DNA of 64,000 bases from Rosellinia necatrix (Eukaryota > Ascomycota > Sordariomycetes > Xylariales > Xylariaceae): the NCBI GenBank assembly GCA_021209875.1, contig JAGYVD010000001.1:5456001-5520000 (forward strand), read 5' to 3'. The notes under the pieces were generated by a model that was given only the letters and a program-made list of their open reading frames with translations, was not told where the DNA came from and did not search any database. A program made the translations under genes and the position numbers. Below are positions 11,004 through 26,339 of this stretch, one piece after another. Every line of letters starts with the position of its first letter. Position 1 is the stretch's first letter.

Positions 11004-12285
11004 ATGTCATCTTCGCTTCCTGGGAGACGCGAACTTCCAGTGTCTCAATATGATCTCGACACGTACTTGGGCCGTGTGAAACACATGGCTAACATCACTG
11101 ACCCAAGGCGAGTACTATAACTTCAAGAAGCGCCTGCCACACTGCCCAGGCTATCCCGCTTTTCGCCCGACGGCCATCAATACATATTTGAGCTAATCTT
11201 TCGCCCTCTAGGACGCTCTTCGTTCGAAGCGATGGCCTAGACCAGGCGAAGAAACTCGTCACGGCGTATAAGCAGGGTGAGGTCAAGCAGATGACGCCCG
11301 AGCTATGGAACGCGAAGAAGATAATCGACTCGACCCTCCACCCCGAAACGGGCGAGGCCGTGTTCCTGCCCTGGCGGATGTCCTGCGCCGTCCTGGTCAA
11401 CTTCGCCGTCACGGCGGGCATGCTCACGCCGGGTCTCAAGGTGCACAACCTAAACCCCCCCCTCCCCTCCCTCTTCTTCCCCTTTCCCCCGTCAACTCCT
11501 CCCTCGAGAGAAACTACTACGAGTCGAGTTTGAAGCGGCTAACATCTTATACACTTTGCCCTTTCCCCCCCCCTTTTAGACCGCGGGGACGATCTTCTGG
11601 CAGGTCACCAACCAATCCGTCAACGTGGCGGTCAACTACTCCAACGCCAACAAGTCGGCGCCCCTGCCCCCCTCGCGGGTCGCGCGATCCTACCTCCTCG
11701 CCGTCGGCGCCTCCTGCGCCCTCGCCGTCGGCCTGGGCGCCGCCGTGCCGCGCCTGACGGCCCTGTCCGCCCCGACCCGGCGCGTGCTCGGCCGCCTCGT
11801 CCCCTTCGCCGCCGTGGCGTCGGCCAGCGCGCTCAACGTCTTCCTCACGCGCGGCGGCGAGCTGCGTGCCGGGATCGACGTGTTCGCCGTCGTCGGCGGG
11901 GGCGGGGGCGGGGGCGAGCAGGTGGATAGTGGTGGTGGTGTGGATACGGAGGACCGCGGCGGTGGCAGCCTCGGCAAGAGCAGGAAGGCGGCTGCCCTGG
12001 CCGTCGGCGAGACCGCCCTGAGCCGCGTGTTCAACGTCGCCCCGATCATGGTCGTCCCCCCCGCTCGTCCTCCTCCGCCTGCAGGGCACCGAGTGGTTGA
12101 AGGGGAGGCCGCGCATGGCCCTGCCGATCAACCTCGGCCTCATCCTGACGATGAGTTTCGCCGCCCTACCGTTCGCGCTCGCCGCGTTTCCGCAGCGGCA
12201 GAGGATCAGCGCGGACAGGTTGGAGCGCGAGTTTCATGGCAAGGGCGGCGCTGATGGCATGGTGATGTTTAATCGTGGTATATGA
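11004..12285 (+). CDS. FSF1: Sideroflexin, mitochondrial inner-membrane amino-acid transporter (one apparent frame break)
   Basis: Sideroflexins are mitochondrial carriers; the human member SFXN1 moves serine, and the yeast homologue is Fsf1. The start MSSSLPGRRELPVSQYDLDT and the core motif HPETGE (residues about 78-83) identify the family, followed by membrane segments and NQSVNVAVNYSNAN. Exons: 11004-11107, 11212-11440, 11580-12285. Intron 1 has GC-AG ends (AG|GCGAGT...CTCTAG): no GT donor nearby keeps the DPR-TLFV frame. One base must be dropped from the C7 run at 12056-12062 to reach the conserved end (PPLVLLRLQGTEWLKGRPRM); the model is then 345 residues. A glycine/aspartate-rich insertion sits near the C-terminal third. 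It neighbours the proline genes, so a role in mitochondrial amino-acid flux linked to proline is possible but inferred. Confidence 0.85.
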
Positions 12286-12862: not shown

Positions 12863-14524
12863 CTATACAGAGTTTGAGTTATCCGCACATGACCATGCAG
12901 CTGAGCCACCAGACTCGCGATAGGAATCAATAATGCCCACAATCGATCCGTAGGTGCCAGCAATTGTGAGGAATGTGCCAATCACAATGACAAAGACACT
13001 GAAGAAGACCATCGCATACCAACGCAGGCTTCTTTCTCCATCCTTTTTCCCCCAGTTATCATACAGCCACATGCAACCCATCGGTTGAAATGACATAAGG
13101 GTGCCCAGGAGGGCACCAACTAGCGATACCAATCCACCAAAAACCGGGATAGCGCTGGCGATGATGTATGCAGTGACAGTGACACCGCCAGTACAACCAA
13201 ACCATGAGACCCAGTGAATAAGGGTATTCTCAGATAGATGTCGCGTGCCACTCAACATGCGAACAAGGATGTATTTAGCGGGAAGCTGTAGCTTGGGATC
13301 AGTATTTCATACCTAGATGGGGGTGAGTTAACCCTTACATGGATGACAAGTGTGGTGGTAACTATTAATCCGGGCAGGGCGATGCCATATGCGACCCTCT
13401 TCACTAGAGCGCCAGCAGAGCCCAGAGCCGGCGTAGCAACGTACGACCCGCAGAAATAATAAAGTACGGTGGCGATTATAATGTAAGTGATGGTGACCCC
13501 GGATTGGCAAATCAGCAATGCTCGAGTATATTTCTTAGGATCTCGCATTTCGGATATGATGGCGAAGAAGCTGGGTGTTCCGGCATAAGCGAAGACAATC
13601 GAGGAGACGGCCGCAATCCCCTCAGCGAACGACGGGTTGCCGATAATCTTGAAGTCGGACTCCCAGGGGCCCTCTTGGGGAGCAGCCGCCGGCCGATCTT
13701 GGACACCAACGGCTATCGTGACGGTGAATACTGTGTTTGGGTGGGAAACAATCAGCGACCTTATTCCCACCAATCTCATCCAGATTCGGGGAAACCAAAT
13801 GTGCCAACTTACTAGCAGTGAGAATGCCAAAAAGGCCAACCCAGGCCAGCCAAGTGATGCGACCTAGCGTTTGTATACTAGCTAGTGAAAAACCTGCTAT
13901 GGCGGCAACAGCGACAAAAACGGCAGTGCATGCGCCATGCGTGGAAATAGCATTGAGGGAAATCGATAAACTTAGCATACCGGAGCCAGAGACGGCGATC
14001 CAGTCTGACATTGATCAATCAACGAACTACGCTTATTGGTGTAATAGGGGTCAATACTTACAAAGACAGTACGCGATCCCAAAGATATAACGCCCAAAAC
14101 GGCCAAACATCATAGCACCGGCATCATCAATGCTGTAGACATTGGGATGGAGAAGTTTGAAGACACCTATCATGTAATCCGACCAAGTTGTGATGGCGGC
14201 AACACTCAAGAGGACGATGATGCCCGGGGCAAAACCTAAGACGTTGAAAGCGGCGGGGATAGAAAGAACGCCCAGTCCAATTTGAGACTTCATCATCAGA
14301 GCAACTGTCCCAAGCCAGCCGACCTAAAGAGATGTCAGTGTAAATAAGCGCAGTCCCCTACGTGTATGGGAGAAATATCGTACATTCCTGTAGTTAGGTC
14401 CCCCTTTGGTGAGTTCACCAAAGACTTCATCATGCGTGACATGAGTTTCTACTTCGCCGGTGCGTACAACGGCGGACTGAACAGGACCAAGGTCCTCGGA
14501 TATCTTCTCCTTTTGTGAATACAT
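12863..14524 (-). CDS. AAAP-family amino-acid permease (neutral amino-acid permease/Mtr type)
   Basis: Plasma-membrane amino-acid transporter, probably proton-coupled. Five exons on the minus strand: 14524-14384, 14323-14062, 14004-13813, 13730-13339 and 13285-12863, joined by 53-82 nt GT-AG introns in consistent phase, giving 469 residues. The hydrophilic N-terminus leads to MMKSQIGLGVLSIPAAFNVL, the first membrane helix signature of fungal Mtr-like permeases. Later come ISTHGACTAVFVAVAAIAGF, the loop QDRPAAAP, and SFFAIISEMRDPKKYTRALL. About eleven hydrophobic segments are visible. It is divergent from proline dehydrogenase over a shared 1.2 kb region, as prnB and prnD are in Aspergillus nidulans, although PrnB is from a different permease family. 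Proline as substrate is therefore inferred from context only. Confidence 0.88.
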
Positions 14525-15743: not shown

Positions 15744-17534
15744 ATGTCGAACTCTACGAGACAAATTCTCCGTTGCCGGGGCGTAAAAATTCCTTATTCC
15801 TATCATATCGTGCCTTTCTGCGCCGTGTCGAGAACCACCAGACCGCAATCACATGGCCGTCTCCCCCGAGCTTGGGTTGCAGCAAAGTATTTTCACCATT
15901 CAAAGCGAGTCTCGACATCGCCGGTGATAGCGAGAGACAATGGCTCGGGGGTCGAGACCAAGGCAGAGTCCTTGGGCTTAGCGCCTCTTTCGGCTTTACC
16001 CATGTCGGCCCTACTGAGATCGCTACTCGTAACTACTGTCTGCTCAAAACCTTATCTTTTAACACCATCACTCTCCATCCTGTCGTTCCTCTCCAAACCT
16101 CACAGGACTTTCCTGTTGAGCATCGATAGGAACCCTATTCTACACTGGCTCGTCAAAAAGACGTTTTACAATCAGTTCTGCACCGGCGAAAATGCAGCAG
16201 AGACGAAGAAAACCATGAAGCAGATGCATGACTATGGATTCGCAGGCGTTATCCTAACTTATGCTAAAGAGACCACATTCGATCACAAGAGCAAGGCGGA
16301 ACAGACAACCGGCACGGCAGGGCCGCTGGCGGATCCCAAAGATCAGAGGTGCGAACACATCGAGGCATGGAGGGTAGGAACACTCGAAACTGTTTATATG
16401 ACAGGCAAAGGTGATAAAATTGCTATCAAGTAAGTGTCTTCTACAACGAATCAGGGGATGGAATAAGGAACCTTCAATTTTAAATCTCGAACATGGAAAT
16501 GAAATCGACTAACTTCTCCGCCCCCGCCCCCCCTTTTCCCCCGTAACTATAGGATGACGGGAGCAGGCCCAGTAGCGACCAAAGCGTTCGCGGCGGGCGA
16601 ATTCCCGCCGCCGCAGATGATGACGGCGCTGGAGGAGATCTGCGAGGCGGCGCGCGCGACGGGGGCGAGCATCGTGGTGGACGCGGAGTCGCAGTACTTC
16701 CAGCGCGGGATCGCGCGGACGGCGGTGGCGCTGATGCGGAAGTACAACCATCCTTACCCTCACCAGCACCACAGCGGCAGCAGCAGCAGCAGCAGCACTA
16801 CGGCAACGCGTGAGGAGCAACAACAACAACAACAGCAGAAGCAGCAGCAGCAGCAGCCACTGGTGATCCAGACGTACCAGTGCTACCTCAAGGCGACGCG
16901 GCGGCACCTGGCCAAGGACATGGCGCTCGCGGCGCGCGAGGGCTGGCACTGGGGCGTCAAGCTCGTGCGCGGCGCCTACATGGCGACGGACGAGCGCGCG
17001 CGCATCCACGACACCAAGCGCGACACGGACGAGGCGTACGACGGCATCGCGCGCGACCTCCTGCGGCGCGACGCCGACGCCTTCCGCGACGGCGACGGTG
17101 CCGCCGACGTGCTCGGCGGCCGGCCCTTCCCGCGCATGAGCCTCGTGCTCGCCACGCATAACCGGGACACCGTCGTCGCCGCACACAAGCTGCATCAGGA
17201 GCTCACTGCCGCCGCCGCCGCCGCCTCCGCCGCTGGCGGTGAGGGTCGTTCTGTCGTACCCCTCGAGTTCGCACAGCTCCACGGCATGGCCGACAGCCTG
17301 AGCTTCTCCCTCCTGCGGGCCGGGGCCGGAGGGACAGCGGCAGCGGCAGCGGCAGCGGCAGCGGCTCCTCCGAGGGTCCTCAAGTGCAGCACCTGGGGCA
17401 CCATGGACGAGTGCCTCGCGTATCTGCTGCGCCGCGCGGTCGAGAACCGCGAGGCCGTCGCGCGCACGCATGACGAGTTCAGGGCGGTCAGGGCGGAGTT
17501 CGGTCGGCGCATATCATCGGTCTTCGGGTTTTAG
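15744..17534 (+). CDS. PUT1: Proline dehydrogenase (mitochondrial, FAD-dependent)
   Basis: Oxidises L-proline to delta-1-pyrroline-5-carboxylate at the mitochondrial inner membrane (prnD in Aspergillus, PUT1 in yeast). Exon 1 is 15744-16429, exon 2 is 16553-17534, with a 123-nt GT-AG intron; 555 residues. The basic N-terminus fits a mitochondrial targeting sequence. Conserved barrel features are PLSALPMSALLRSL, KTFYNQFCTGEN, VKLVRGAYM (about 364-372), LATHN, QLHGMADSLSF and a WGTMDECLAYLLRRAVENRE helix near the C-terminus. Low-complexity insertions stand out: a Ser-rich then Gln-rich stretch at about residues 300-333, and alanine runs near 447-453 and 490-500. Exon 2 has almost only G/C third bases, exon 1 does not. 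P5CDH, the next enzyme, lies 2.2 kb downstream. Confidence 0.93.
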
Positions 17535-18118: not shown

Positions 18119-19250
18119 TTATCCCGCGCGCACGGCGCCATGAAACAGCAACCTCAGCTCCTGGTTCGCGAGCACGCCGACGCCGAAGGCGGGCAGGATG
18201 CGCAGGCACCTGGCGAAGGTGGCGGCGGCGAGCCCGGAGCCGGGGCCGGCGGTGTGCGCCAGGCGGTCCGCGAGCGCGATCCCCGGGCCCTGTCGCTGGT
18301 AGAGGTCGAGCCCGAGCAGGTGCACGGGCGTGGCGACCAGCTGCGTCAGCGCGGGCACCGTGAGCTGCGAGGCGGCCGCCTTGGCGTGCGCGTTCGCCAC
18401 CAGCGCGTCCGGGATCCCCGCCGCCACCCGCGGCGCCAGCGTGATCGACCCGAAGAGCGTGATCGCGTCCCGCGCCAGGAACACCGCGGCCACGGACCGC
18501 GGCATGCGGCGGATGAGCGGCGACGGCGGCGGCGGCGGCGTTGGCACCGAGGCGGTCGGTGTGTTTGCGAGGACGGTCGGCTTTATCGCCGTCGCCACCA
18601 CTGCTGCTGCTCGGCTGCTCTGGGGGATTGTCGTGGGGGATGGCTGGAGATGGCTGAATATCTGCGCGAAGCGGATATCCTTCCATATGCCGAGCGGCAC
18701 ATTGATCGCTGTCGTCGCCAAAAACGTGGTGGCGCTAGCCGCAGTTATCTGGTACTTCCTTCCAAGTGTGTCTGAGCAGCTCGCGACCGTGTATGTTGCA
18801 GCGTATAGTGTCCAGATGATAGCAAACGGCCGGGCGAAGAAAAAGGTCTTCGGCCGGGCGACGGCGCGTACTGTGCGTTTCCAGAGGGTGCGGAGGAGGG
18901 ATTCCCCTGATGCCGCTTTCTCTACCACCGCCCTATAATACCGAGTTAGTACTCTCGCGTTATGTTTCCCGTAAAACACTCATAGACATACCTGTCGATT
19001 ATGACAATGGCTGGGGAAGCCAGTGTTGCCGATATCAGCGCTGCTGCTACATCTCCAGCCAGTTGATCGAGCGTTCGCGACGGGCGCGAAGGCGGCTCTA
19101 ACATGACAAAGGCAATATCCTCAGTGCGCAATCTCTCGCGGGGCCCCTTTGAAAGAGAACATGTTGTGGTACTTCACTCTTGACCCCGATATGAGAGAGT
19201 ACCCCTTTGGCAGCTTCGGCTCGGTAAGACATCCTCGCTGACATCTGCAT
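18119..19250 (-). CDS. Conserved multi-pass (probably mitochondrial) membrane protein of unknown function
   Basis: Not assignable to a characterised family. Three exons on the minus strand, 19250-19203, 19146-18992 and 18932-18119, with 56 and 59 nt GT-AG introns, give 338 residues. The spliced N-terminus reads through ...GPRERLRTEDIAFVMLEPP, then TLDQLAGDVAAALISATL and PAIVIIDRAVVEKA. Hydrophobic stretches near FFFARPFAIIWTLYAATYTV, ATTFLATTAINVPLG and DAITLFGSITLAPRVAAG suggest several membrane spans. The KDIRFAQ motif follows one of them. ATG 19250 is used; nearer in-frame ATGs (19244, 19232) are alternatives. It sits between proline dehydrogenase and P5CDH and shares a 514-bp divergent promoter with P5CDH, so a part in mitochondrial proline handling is plausible. 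I recall similar predicted proteins in other filamentous ascomycetes, without known function. Confidence 0.75.
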
Positions 19251-19764
19251 AGTACTAAGTCTGGGCCATTTTCAACCGGTTTCAGTCGCTCATCGGATCG
19301 AGTCAAGCCGGTCACCATCCCCGCCTCACTTTTCGTGGTTCAACATTACATTAGTGCATCCGTAACATGAAGCAACCTTTACATGTTCTCAGGTACCCAA
19401 TACCGAGTCTTCCGATGAATAATAACTATCACAAGCGAGGTCGGATGGCGGCGTCATGTGCCAGTTTCTTTAGGTCACGTTCTGGCGGAGATCTAGAACC
19501 CGAGCGTGTGGTCGGCGACAGCCATGTCGGAAAGCCTTCCGAGCCCGGTACGGAGTGGAGCCGGTGGGATTTGAGGGGCCCTCTGGCCGTGGTCGGCGGC
19601 GATCGGTAGCTCGAACCTCTCCAATGGCGCCTGCATTCTGTAAATGCATTGAACAATGTAGATAACTTGAAAGAGGTCGGGAAGGAACTGATGTTGCTAT
19701 TAAACGGCCATATCCCGCTACTTCTACGTCAAGAAAAAAATCCTATCACCATCGTACATTCGTC
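19251..19764. promoter_or_regulatory. Shared divergent promoter region of the unknown membrane protein and P5CDH
   Basis: 514 bp between two divergent starts. It contains the perfect inverted repeat TCGGAAAGCCTTCCGA at 19527-19542 (six-base arms, four-base spacer; core CGG-N8-CCG), about 220 bp upstream of the P5CDH start. The yeast proline regulator Put3 is known to bind CGG-N10-CCG, so the architecture is similar but the spacing differs. Regulatory function is inferred. Confidence 0.5.
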
Positions 19765-21734
<1,970 letters not shown>

Positions 21735-23619: not shown

Positions 23620-26339
23620 CTAGTCCAGGATTGTTTGGAACACCCACTCCGCGTCGAGATTATCAATCGAATTCGCCATTTCCGTCAACTCGGCCGTCGT
23701 CATTAGATTCTCAAACGAGATATCGCTGCCACAAGGGTCAACGGCGTCAGCAATAGGCGGCAATAGCGTCGTGGCTAGCCCCACATTGTTGCGGATATCG
23801 TCGATGGACACGACTCCGTCCCCGACTACGCTCGAAATGCCTTCGCTATGAGACCCAGCAAGGATTGAGCTCCCGTCCGGGGGAAGGCTGTTCAGCAATC
23901 CGTGTAACTGAACAAGTTCGGATTTGCGGGAGAGCGCCGCCTGGTTGCCGAAGCTGACGAGCTCTTCGAATATAGAGTATGCCTTCTGCAACCACAGCGG
24001 GACATTCTCATTCAGGTGAACATCAAGCACATAAGCCACCATTGCACTGACCGTAGATACGAACAACGAATCGAGGTCAAATGGCAGGAAAACCTCTATC
24101 ATGGGCGTCGGCGGGTACCTATTAGCCTTGGCATTATATCAAGTAGAAAAGAAAAAACGACAGCAAGACAAGCATCATGGGGCATCCCGATAAACATACC
24201 TAACAAGCCCTGGGTTTGCAGTAGCCTCAGCATCGTAATGCTTTGCAGGGAGGAGTCAAGGCACATCCGTATCAGGTTTCGGACCGTCTCGGAGGTATTG
24301 ATTCTTCTCAAGCACTCACTTGCTGAGGTCAATCGGATCTCCAAGAAAAAATATAGAAGTGGTCTTGTCGCCAGGATTATACACTATGCAGACACTGTCA
24401 GCACTGCGCCAATCATTCGCTGAAATCAAAGGATAAGTTTCCCGGCGAAGGCCTACTTGGTGATATAGAAGATGGAGATGAGCCGAGATCCTGGACACCC
24501 CATGGCCCGGCTTCTCCCGCTCGACAGGAAATGAATGGCGGAGCTCATCCGCCACTTCTGCGATATCGGAAAGTACGGCTTTCGCGCCGTGCAAAAACTT
24601 GCGATCTTTCTGGCCGTCAGCACCGTAGACGGCTATGCAGGTTAGCAAAGGCCTCGGCGTTATTTCGGAGACAATAAATTCATAGATCAAGAGGAAACCT
24701 ACTGTCGTTGATCTTGGCCATAATACGTGACGTCTTGATTCGTATTCTGAGCGCCGAAGTACGCTGGACAGAACCCAGAAATGTAGGCAATTGGGGGCAC
24801 ACGCCATTGTCATGATGCGACTGCGGCAAGCCCATGAGAGAGGTCATCTCGCGATCCAGTATGTAGACTGTCCACCACGCTCGGCGCGCCCTCTCGACTA
24901 GAGCCTCCCCAAATCGCCCAGTCCCCATATCGGTGTGCAGGCCGCTGCCTAGCGCTAATCGCATCGCTTGACCGATCTACATGGTACGCGTCACATGAGT
25001 TCTCGTGACCCCGATGGCTGGATAGCTAGTTAGGGAAAGGGGTAAGAACTTACGTAATTATGCGCCACGATTCGGACATCTATGCAATGCAGGTAGAGCG
25101 CAACACAGGACAGAATCTCGATCGCCTCGATGGGGCGAGTCCAGAGCATCATCATGTTGGGCAACAAACGGAGTGCCTTGGTGAAGTACTCCTCGCCCGG
25201 TGGACGCTTGCCTTGGGATTTCTTGGTGGTGAATGCTTTACCGAAGGCCATGAGGAGGAGGAAGTGGACGTACCACAGTTCCTCCGAGGGCTCCGGCTGC
25301 TGCAGAGGGTTGTCGTAGAGCGCGTATAGGGACGGCATGAACGAGTCCTCGTCGAAGAGGTGGAAGACCTGGCAGCAGTGGAATTTCACCGCGTTGATCA
25401 TGTGTAAGCAGTAATCAATCGCGGGTAGAACGGGTGAGGCTGGCGTAGAGGATGCGACCGCGCTTTCGGTCCAATCCAGATCGTATATCATGCCATCGAA
25501 TCCCAGGTCGTCGGTGGAAGGAGGTAGTTGGAACAGCCTCTCGTGTGTCATATTCAGGATACGTCTAGTGAAAGACCAGTTTGAGGAAGTGCCCATGTAA
25601 AACGTGAAGCCGTTCCCGGCGGTGGTGAATACCGAGCGGCTTGCGGACAATGGGTTTGTGATCTGTTGATCGTCGGAATCCGAAGCTGGCGTGTATGGCC
25701 GTGCTTGCCCATCGTCGGTCACACCGGATGGAAAAGGGCTAGGGCCGTCGTGATAATCTGGGCGTTGGTTTGAAGAGGTCGAGGCAGCCTGCCCAGCTGT
25801 TGTTGAAGTTGACGGCCGGCCGCGGTGACGACGATACGGCTCGTGGCTATCGCGGGTGGCTGAACTCGGAGTCTGAGGTTCCGCGTCTTCCGCAGGGCCC
25901 TCAAAAGCCGTGGCTGCCGCCGCACCCCGTTGCAGCTCTTCGATGTATCTATAAATTGGCGCGCCGTGGTCAGCCGTTCGTATGTCGGGCACAGCATAGT
26001 CCTAGCAGGAAAAGGTAATGGCATGCCTTCTAGTGACCATGATCTTTTGGTCGTCGACGTTGAACGTACAGGTCAAGTTGCGCTTGCGGCAGGCGTCACA
26101 GGGACGCGACCCCGAGCACCTGACCTTCTGGCGGCGACATCTCTCGCAACTGATGCAAAGGTCATTGATGAGATTGCTGTGATGCAGGCGTCCCAGGATC
26201 TCTGCTCGAGCACGGTTACTCACGCGTTGGATGATCTCTTGATCACTCTCCTGGACGGGGGGGTCGGCTTCGGAGGCGGACTTGGAGCGGTGTCGCCGGA
26301 GCTCGGGTCAAGGGGATAATCATTTTCCTTGCGTGACAT
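23620..26339 (-). CDS. Zn2Cys6 fungal transcription factor (candidate proline-utilisation activator)
   Basis: Nuclear DNA-binding regulator. Seven exons on the minus strand: 26339-26224, 26149-26027, 25948-25054, 24976-24703, 24632-24457, 24383-24200 and 24095-23620, giving 747 residues with consistent phases. The zinc cluster has cysteines at 40, 43, 50, 56, 59 and 66 (CX2CX6CX5CX2CX6C), preceded by VIKRSSNA and followed by KIMVTRRYIEELQ. A Ser/Pro-rich linker leads to a fungal-specific regulatory domain with AIDYCLHMINAVKFHCCQVF, ELWYVHFLLLMAFGKAF and ERARRAWWTVYILDREM. Intron 2 (26026-25949) has GC-AG ends, needed to join TRR to YIEEL. A G7 run at 26257-26263 in exon 1 is in frame as printed. 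This general type is often annotated as proline utilisation trans-activator, and its position beside PRODH/P5CDH supports that, but I cannot prove orthology to Put3/PrnA. Confidence 0.85.

Follow-up and report, generated by a model that had tools for sequence, protein, structure and literature searches.

Excerpts of papers from 2019 (PMC6769469), 2020 (PMC7519068) and 2021 (PMC7920303) give the mitochondrial proline importer as unidentified, and an excerpt of a 2025 review reports recent evidence for sideroflexin-1 while describing the transporters of pyrroline-5-carboxylate (P5C) as unknown (PMC12523316). Here we describe a gene of the fungus Rosellinia necatrix that lies between the two proline enzymes PRODH and P5CDH, in a stretch of 64,000 nucleotides analysed as a whole (the window; contig JAGYVD010000001.1, positions 5,456,001 to 5,520,000). 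Its product is predicted to adopt the fold of the SLC25 carriers, and we refer to it as the carrier-like protein. The gene is with high probability part of proline catabolism, and the protein is a candidate missing component of the mitochondrial proline pathway. Among the top-listed titles and abstract openings in searches of mostly open-access literature, we found nothing on this family or on fungal proline clusters that include a gene of carrier-like type.

Several described systems resemble this one in part. With SLC25 carriers such as UCP1 and the ADP/ATP carrier, the carrier-like protein shares a predicted six-helix, three-repeat fold, prolines in the odd helices and an R-x-x-P in helix 6, but it lacks PX[DE]XX[KR], a complete [FY][DE]XX[KR], a confidently modelled matrix helix in repeat 2 and a Pfam match. 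Its models are structurally similar to chains M1 and M2 of Tetrahymena complex IV (7w5z), with 7-10% identity in the structural alignments. MTCH1/2 and SLC25A46, divergent outer-membrane relatives likened here by name only, are SLC25-derived proteins with other functions according to an excerpt of PMC12410006. The sideroflexins, a mitochondrial family of amino-acid transporters according to part of PMC7920303, have a member in the same cluster, which belongs to a different Pfam family from the carrier-like gene. The proline cluster of Aspergillus nidulans likewise encodes a protein of unknown function, prnX, with a reported size of 40 kDa, which we compare by its description in part of PMC5983819.

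Gene model and relatives

The carrier-like gene is encoded on the minus strand, convergent with PRODH and divergent from P5CDH. Its best coding model, complement(18119-18932, 18992-19104), has two exons and a single intron and gives 308 amino acids.

18992..19104, minus strand: exon 1 of the carrier-like gene, ATG at 19104, 37 codons plus two bases
18933..18991, minus strand: intron of the carrier-like gene, 59 nt, phase 2, with normal splice signals (GT...CTAAC...AG)
18119..18932, minus strand: exon 2, from the last base of codon 38 through residue 308 and the stop, also recovered in the genome search
19105..19764, no strand: upstream region common to the carrier-like gene and P5CDH, 660 bp
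15744..17534, plus strand: PRODH (Pfam Pro_dh, E 1.8e-42)
19765..21651, plus strand: P5CDH (Pfam Aldedh, E 3.3e-61; best NCBIfam model TIGR01236)

The original prediction, made from the DNA letters, was right to place a protein with several hydrophobic segments between two proline enzymes. The 338-residue product that it proposed, starting near 19250, has to be replaced: the frame there runs into a stop codon and could reach the exon only through a further splice that has no support. The start methionine of the 308-residue model is also that of the nearest relative, a Rosellinia necatrix ortholog of 307 amino acids (P0001, 95% identity). The divergent arrangement with P5CDH is as had been proposed, but the shared upstream region is longer than the 514 bp given for it, since the ATG of P5CDH lies at 19765.

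A first search with the carrier-like protein, limited to scoring the 7997 candidates with the most words in common, gave at least 96 homologs at E<=1e-3. This is far beyond chance. At least two of these (P0095 and P0096) are of the type of a paralog described below. The named homologs include Xylaria, Hypoxylon, Fusarium, Penicillium, Aspergillus, Diplodia, Bipolaris and Aureobasidium, which we take to represent Sordariomycetes, Eurotiomycetes and Dothideomycetes. Their source names range from “sequence orphan” to the truncated entries “mitochondrial substrate/s”, “mitochondrial carr” and “mitochondrial fission process”; automatic annotation is therefore inconsistent.

The same assembly (49 Mb, 12 contigs) encodes a second copy of the gene on contig C7, 37% identical over two exon matches. 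The intron of this paralog interrupts the homologous residue in the identical phase. The C7-type family is the larger one, with 1308 matches, of which the best 120 were listed. In a quick tree of 65 rows, the window and C7 types split with an SH-aLRT of 100 and a branch of 2.07 changes per column. A short tandem repeat (unit ~atcagtgagg) lies upstream of the C7 paralog (L004, ~160-240).

Linkage with PRODH in other fungi

We searched for PRODH with the cluster copy as query, which gave 383 matches, and listed the best 120. A shared contig was inferred from an equal size of the longest contig together with the same organism name; strain identity was given for part of the PRODH rows. For 20 of the 96 carrier-like homologs, one of these 120 best PRODH matches lay on an equal-sized contig. 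Nineteen pairs agree in organism name and the twentieth (P0078/P0325, 43091 bases) was paired by equal size alone. Half of the shared contigs (10/20) are smaller than 350 kb. Among the 21 named strains present in both lists, 19 were linked, the exceptions being Xylaria multiplex and Bipolaris maydis. The locus tags of the carrier-like gene and PRODH follow one another directly in Monosporascus (000288/000289), Kalmusia (001808/001809) and Paraphaeosphaeria (002790/002791); in Penicillium argentinense (002806/002804) one number lies between them, and in Xylaria multiplex (g2631/g9048) they are widely separated.

As a control, the best 120 of the 1308 C7-type matches shared no equal-sized contig with the listed PRODH matches, and none of the 13 named organisms present in both lists was linked. 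The chance product of the linkage is ~1e-38, an order-of-magnitude guide only, which assumes 40-Mb genomes and independent species. A partner missing from either list should not be read as a loss, since the carrier-like list comes from scored candidates, and the other two hold the best 120 out of 383 PRODH and 1308 C7-type matches. The carrier-linked PRODH did not form a separate group in a PRODH tree (FastTree, with a long outgroup branch), where 18 linkage changes were counted against a shuffled mean of 19.9, and 60 of 500 shuffles were equally low.

The link with the proline pathway that had been suggested from position is thus backed by the linkage in 19 of 21 named strains and by a paralogous gene set (see below). 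Genetic linkage with proline catabolism, found here, is supporting evidence for assignment to a class of proline carriers and does not by itself define it.

Five of the best 120 PRODH proteins (P0244, P0245, P0292, P0307 and P0330, from Colletotrichum, Kalmusia and Paramyrothecium) also carry PF14748 and PF03807. We take these to be domains of the P5C-reductase type. Such proteins would be true fusions or merged neighbouring genes, and the cluster would then also include P5C reductase.

Predicted fold and repeat register

The structure prediction that had been suggested was run, and gave an SLC25 carrier-like fold in two models: six long helices in three repeats, plus short helices that follow helix 1 and precede helix 6. 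The signature prolines end helices 1, 3 and 5, and the R-x-x-P lies in helix 6. In the P0001 model, repeat 2 lacks its matrix helix and has a low-confidence linker instead. Among the top structural matches are chains M1 and M2 of 7w5z, which we take to be carrier-like subunits of Tetrahymena complex IV. The structural-match Z of the models is below the tool's bar for helical bundles.

We then compared sequences with a carrier-repeat profile of 25 repeats from 13 carrier frames of the same genome, selected among 18 loci for their number of signatures and their length; four partial or off-register rows were dropped before the scan. Ungapped odd-helix and even-helix blocks of the profile were slid along both paralog families. 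The odd block had its best places at P117 and P31 in the window type, with P239 ranking 7 of 282, and took P58, G149 and P234 as ranks 1, 2 and 3 of 273 in the C7 type. Between the two types these residues correspond, one in each of helices 1, 3 and 5. When the block columns were permuted with the proline column fixed, the observed odd sum was reached in 3 and 1 of 2000 trials. At these anchors a reversed block scored -7.0 to -12.5; at other places it reached as much as 4.8 and 3.2, and the weight therefore lies on the agreement of three places and not on single scores. The even block fitted best at P284 (window type) and P277 (C7 type), each with an invariant arginine three residues before (35 and 26 of 2000 permutations). 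The Arg-Asp register of helix 4 was second and third best within the helix (125 and 152 of 2000 permutations), and the scan gave no convincing place for helix 2.

An unrelated six-helix protein, whose likeness to carriers would be an artefact of helical bundles, is improbable: the models are consistent with each other, no unrelated chain in their match lists scores above 6.0, and the register scan concurs. The models predict a six-helix, three-repeat carrier fold for the carrier-like protein.

Profile searches and conserved residues

The profile searches, also proposed at the outset, yielded no significant Pfam or NCBIfam match for the carrier-like gene; the Pfam result was the same for the two relatives searched. 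Mito_carr (PF00153) did not match the gene at E<=1, nor did it appear in the 13-family listing obtained for 46 members; it has 116 exon-level matches elsewhere in the same genome. The sideroflexin family (PF03820) did not match either. Two weak hits, to a pullulanase domain (E 0.17) and to acetylglutamate kinase (E 0.069), were judged to be chance. Two alignments were used for further searches and for conservation: A1 (46 rows, 44 of the window type) and A2 (51 rows of both types, 16 of them common to A1). In hmmsearch against sequences of the Protein Data Bank (PDB), the A1 profile found nothing at E<=10 and the A2 profile six unrelated proteins at E>=0.14, including a nuclear export factor (E 0.14) judged to be chance. 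With hhalign, the whole A1 profile did not significantly match the 13 carriers of the same genome (E 0.097). Single repeats matched the carrier-repeat profile at E 0.0029, 0.22 and 0.12 (window type) and 0.015, 0.45 and 0.13 (C7 type), and repeats of the family compared with one another gave no significant match (E 0.22-0.63). The links from this family to carriers by sequence alone are weak. The earlier statement that the protein has no recognised domain holds at the level of sequence profiles, and its exclusion from the standard carrier family holds for the signature and Mito_carr; neither extends to the predicted fold, which matches the SLC25 carriers.

The sequences at the odd helices are PAIVIIDR, PLGIWKDIR and PVHLLGLDLY, so that all three PX[DE]XX[KR] motifs are lost, as had been noted. 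The signature proline itself is kept at three of three places in the window protein and at two of three in the C7 paralog. No [FY][DE]XX[KR] occurs in helices 2 and 4, and helix 6 has a remnant, N-Q-E-L-R, of which the final arginine alone is kept in the best register. Other residues are strongly conserved. K122, D123, H241, R191, D192, R278, R281, N293, N115, Y81 and T84 (P0001 numbering) are invariant in A1, and D37 (45/46), R38 (43/46) and D246 (44/46) nearly so. In A2, the equivalents of all these conserved residues are kept in 51 of 51 rows, except R65 (49/51). The main positions in the window protein are:

19012..19014, minus strand: P31, signature proline of helix 1 (PAIVIIDR), charged signature positions lost, followed by D37-R38 (register scan, conservation)
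18677..18682, minus strand: invariant K122-D123, end of helix 3 (VPLGIWKD) (conservation, register scan)
18467..18472, minus strand: invariant R192-D193 of helix 4 (R191-D192 in P0001), possible contact-point-II pair (conservation)
18320..18322, minus strand: invariant H242 in helix 5 (P0001: H241), occupying the acidic position of signature 3 (PVHLLG) (conservation, register scan)
18200..18202, minus strand: invariant R282 of helix 6 (P0001: R281), three residues ahead of P285, in the region of contact point III

According to part of PMC6769469, amino-acid carriers have R[DE] at contact point II and glycine carriers an uncharged contact point I, and an excerpt of PMC12410006 gives contact point III as positive in nearly all carriers. 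The last corresponds to R281 of P0001 in the best register. Judged from these residues, the contact-point pattern, which the C7 paralog has as well, would fit a neutral amino acid, the registers of helices 2 and 4 being insecure. Genuine carriers may lack one signature charge (PMC9104175, in part); the near-total loss in the carrier-like protein goes far beyond this.

The cluster in Rosellinia necatrix

Three further genes lie around PRODH and P5CDH.

~11034..12282, plus strand: sideroflexin, upstream of PRODH, several exons, matched by PF03820, outer limits from profile matches
12863..14323, minus strand: Aa_trans amino-acid permease, several exons, next to PRODH on its upstream side
23620..26217, minus strand: Zn2Cys6 protein, zinc cluster ~26157 (E 8.8e-10), downstream limits uncertain, beyond P5CDH

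Four kinds of protein have a second copy in the genome: PRODH on C5, P5CDH on C1 (54% identity), sideroflexin at C5:2706109 and the carrier-like protein on C7. This pattern, with one copy of each in the cluster and another elsewhere, speaks for a joint function, though from one genome only. The permease is of the Aa_trans type, whereas PrnB of the Aspergillus nidulans prn cluster is of the YAT family (PMC5983819, in part).

The pieces of the Zn2Cys6 protein outside its zinc cluster had no Pfam match. In the shared 660-bp region we found neither CCGG-N(0-10)-CCGG nor CGG-N10-CCG (PrnA- and Put3-type sites), and seven CGG-N(1-20)-CCG against 3.6 expected, as many as in 9% of shuffles. These patterns showed no significant excess in any of the six regions upstream of cluster genes, and the Zn2Cys6 protein is therefore a candidate regulator at most.

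Two features of the enzyme genes were noted. The P5CDH frame shifts near 21334 (a G run) and is restored near 21577 (a C run), by assembly indels or in a damaged gene. The PRODH frame has poly-Ser, poly-Gln and poly-Ala runs in the region of the catalytic domain (16779-16856, 17208-17225 and 17337-17366).

Possible functions of the carrier-like protein

The family may be the fungal mitochondrial proline carrier, or a partner that returns P5C or glutamate, with an SLC25 fold devoid of canonical salt-bridge gates and with clustered and dispersed copies. We give this a probability of about 0.27. Transport is favoured because invariant polar residues lie in the predicted membrane helices and because the contact points resemble those of carriers. 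Some observations weigh against it: both canonical gates are lost, with none of the three PX[DE]XX[KR] motifs exact, and if prnX were an ortholog, an essential role would be excluded in Aspergillus nidulans, though a paralog could substitute. The lost gate motifs would also suit a protein that has the SLC25 fold and does not transport, but anchors or assembles PRODH and P5CDH, or the sideroflexin, at the inner membrane, a role that the carrier-like chains of Tetrahymena complex IV seem to have. This reading, plausible though still doubtful, draws on those chains, which rank among the best structural matches, and on MTCH1/2 and SLC25A46, SLC25 relatives with other roles (PMC12410006, in part). 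Yet both paralog types keep many polar residues of the predicted membrane helices unchanged, which a mere scaffold would not have to do.

The original alternative of a transporter or an assembly factor stands as a pair of options, but it did not include the sideroflexin, which competes for the role of proline carrier. With a gene in the same cluster, a dispersed second copy, and the evidence for sideroflexin-1 reported in the excerpt of the 2025 review (PMC12523316), it has a good chance, if short of even, of being the importer of the cluster, the carrier-like protein then handling the P5C/glutamate step or assisting. This overlaps with both readings above, and sideroflexin linkage was seen in the Rosellinia necatrix genome alone. 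It is very improbable that the carrier-like gene is a bystander with no part in the pathway, or a dispensable accessory gene of the kind of prnX, a proline-inducible gene of the prn cluster reported in part of PMC5983819 as unnecessary for proline utilisation: linkage recurs across many genera, in 19 of the 21 named strains, which is unlikely by chance. For prnX as a possible ortholog, the reported 40 kDa does not fit the 240-304 amino acids of the six relatives read.

The PRODH-linked carrier-like gene and the clustered sideroflexin are two named, removable genes for a direct test of proline import. If the carrier-like protein is a transporter, the SLC25 fold would be able to function without both of its canonical gates; if it does not transport, it would be a new pseudo-carrier of amino-acid catabolism.
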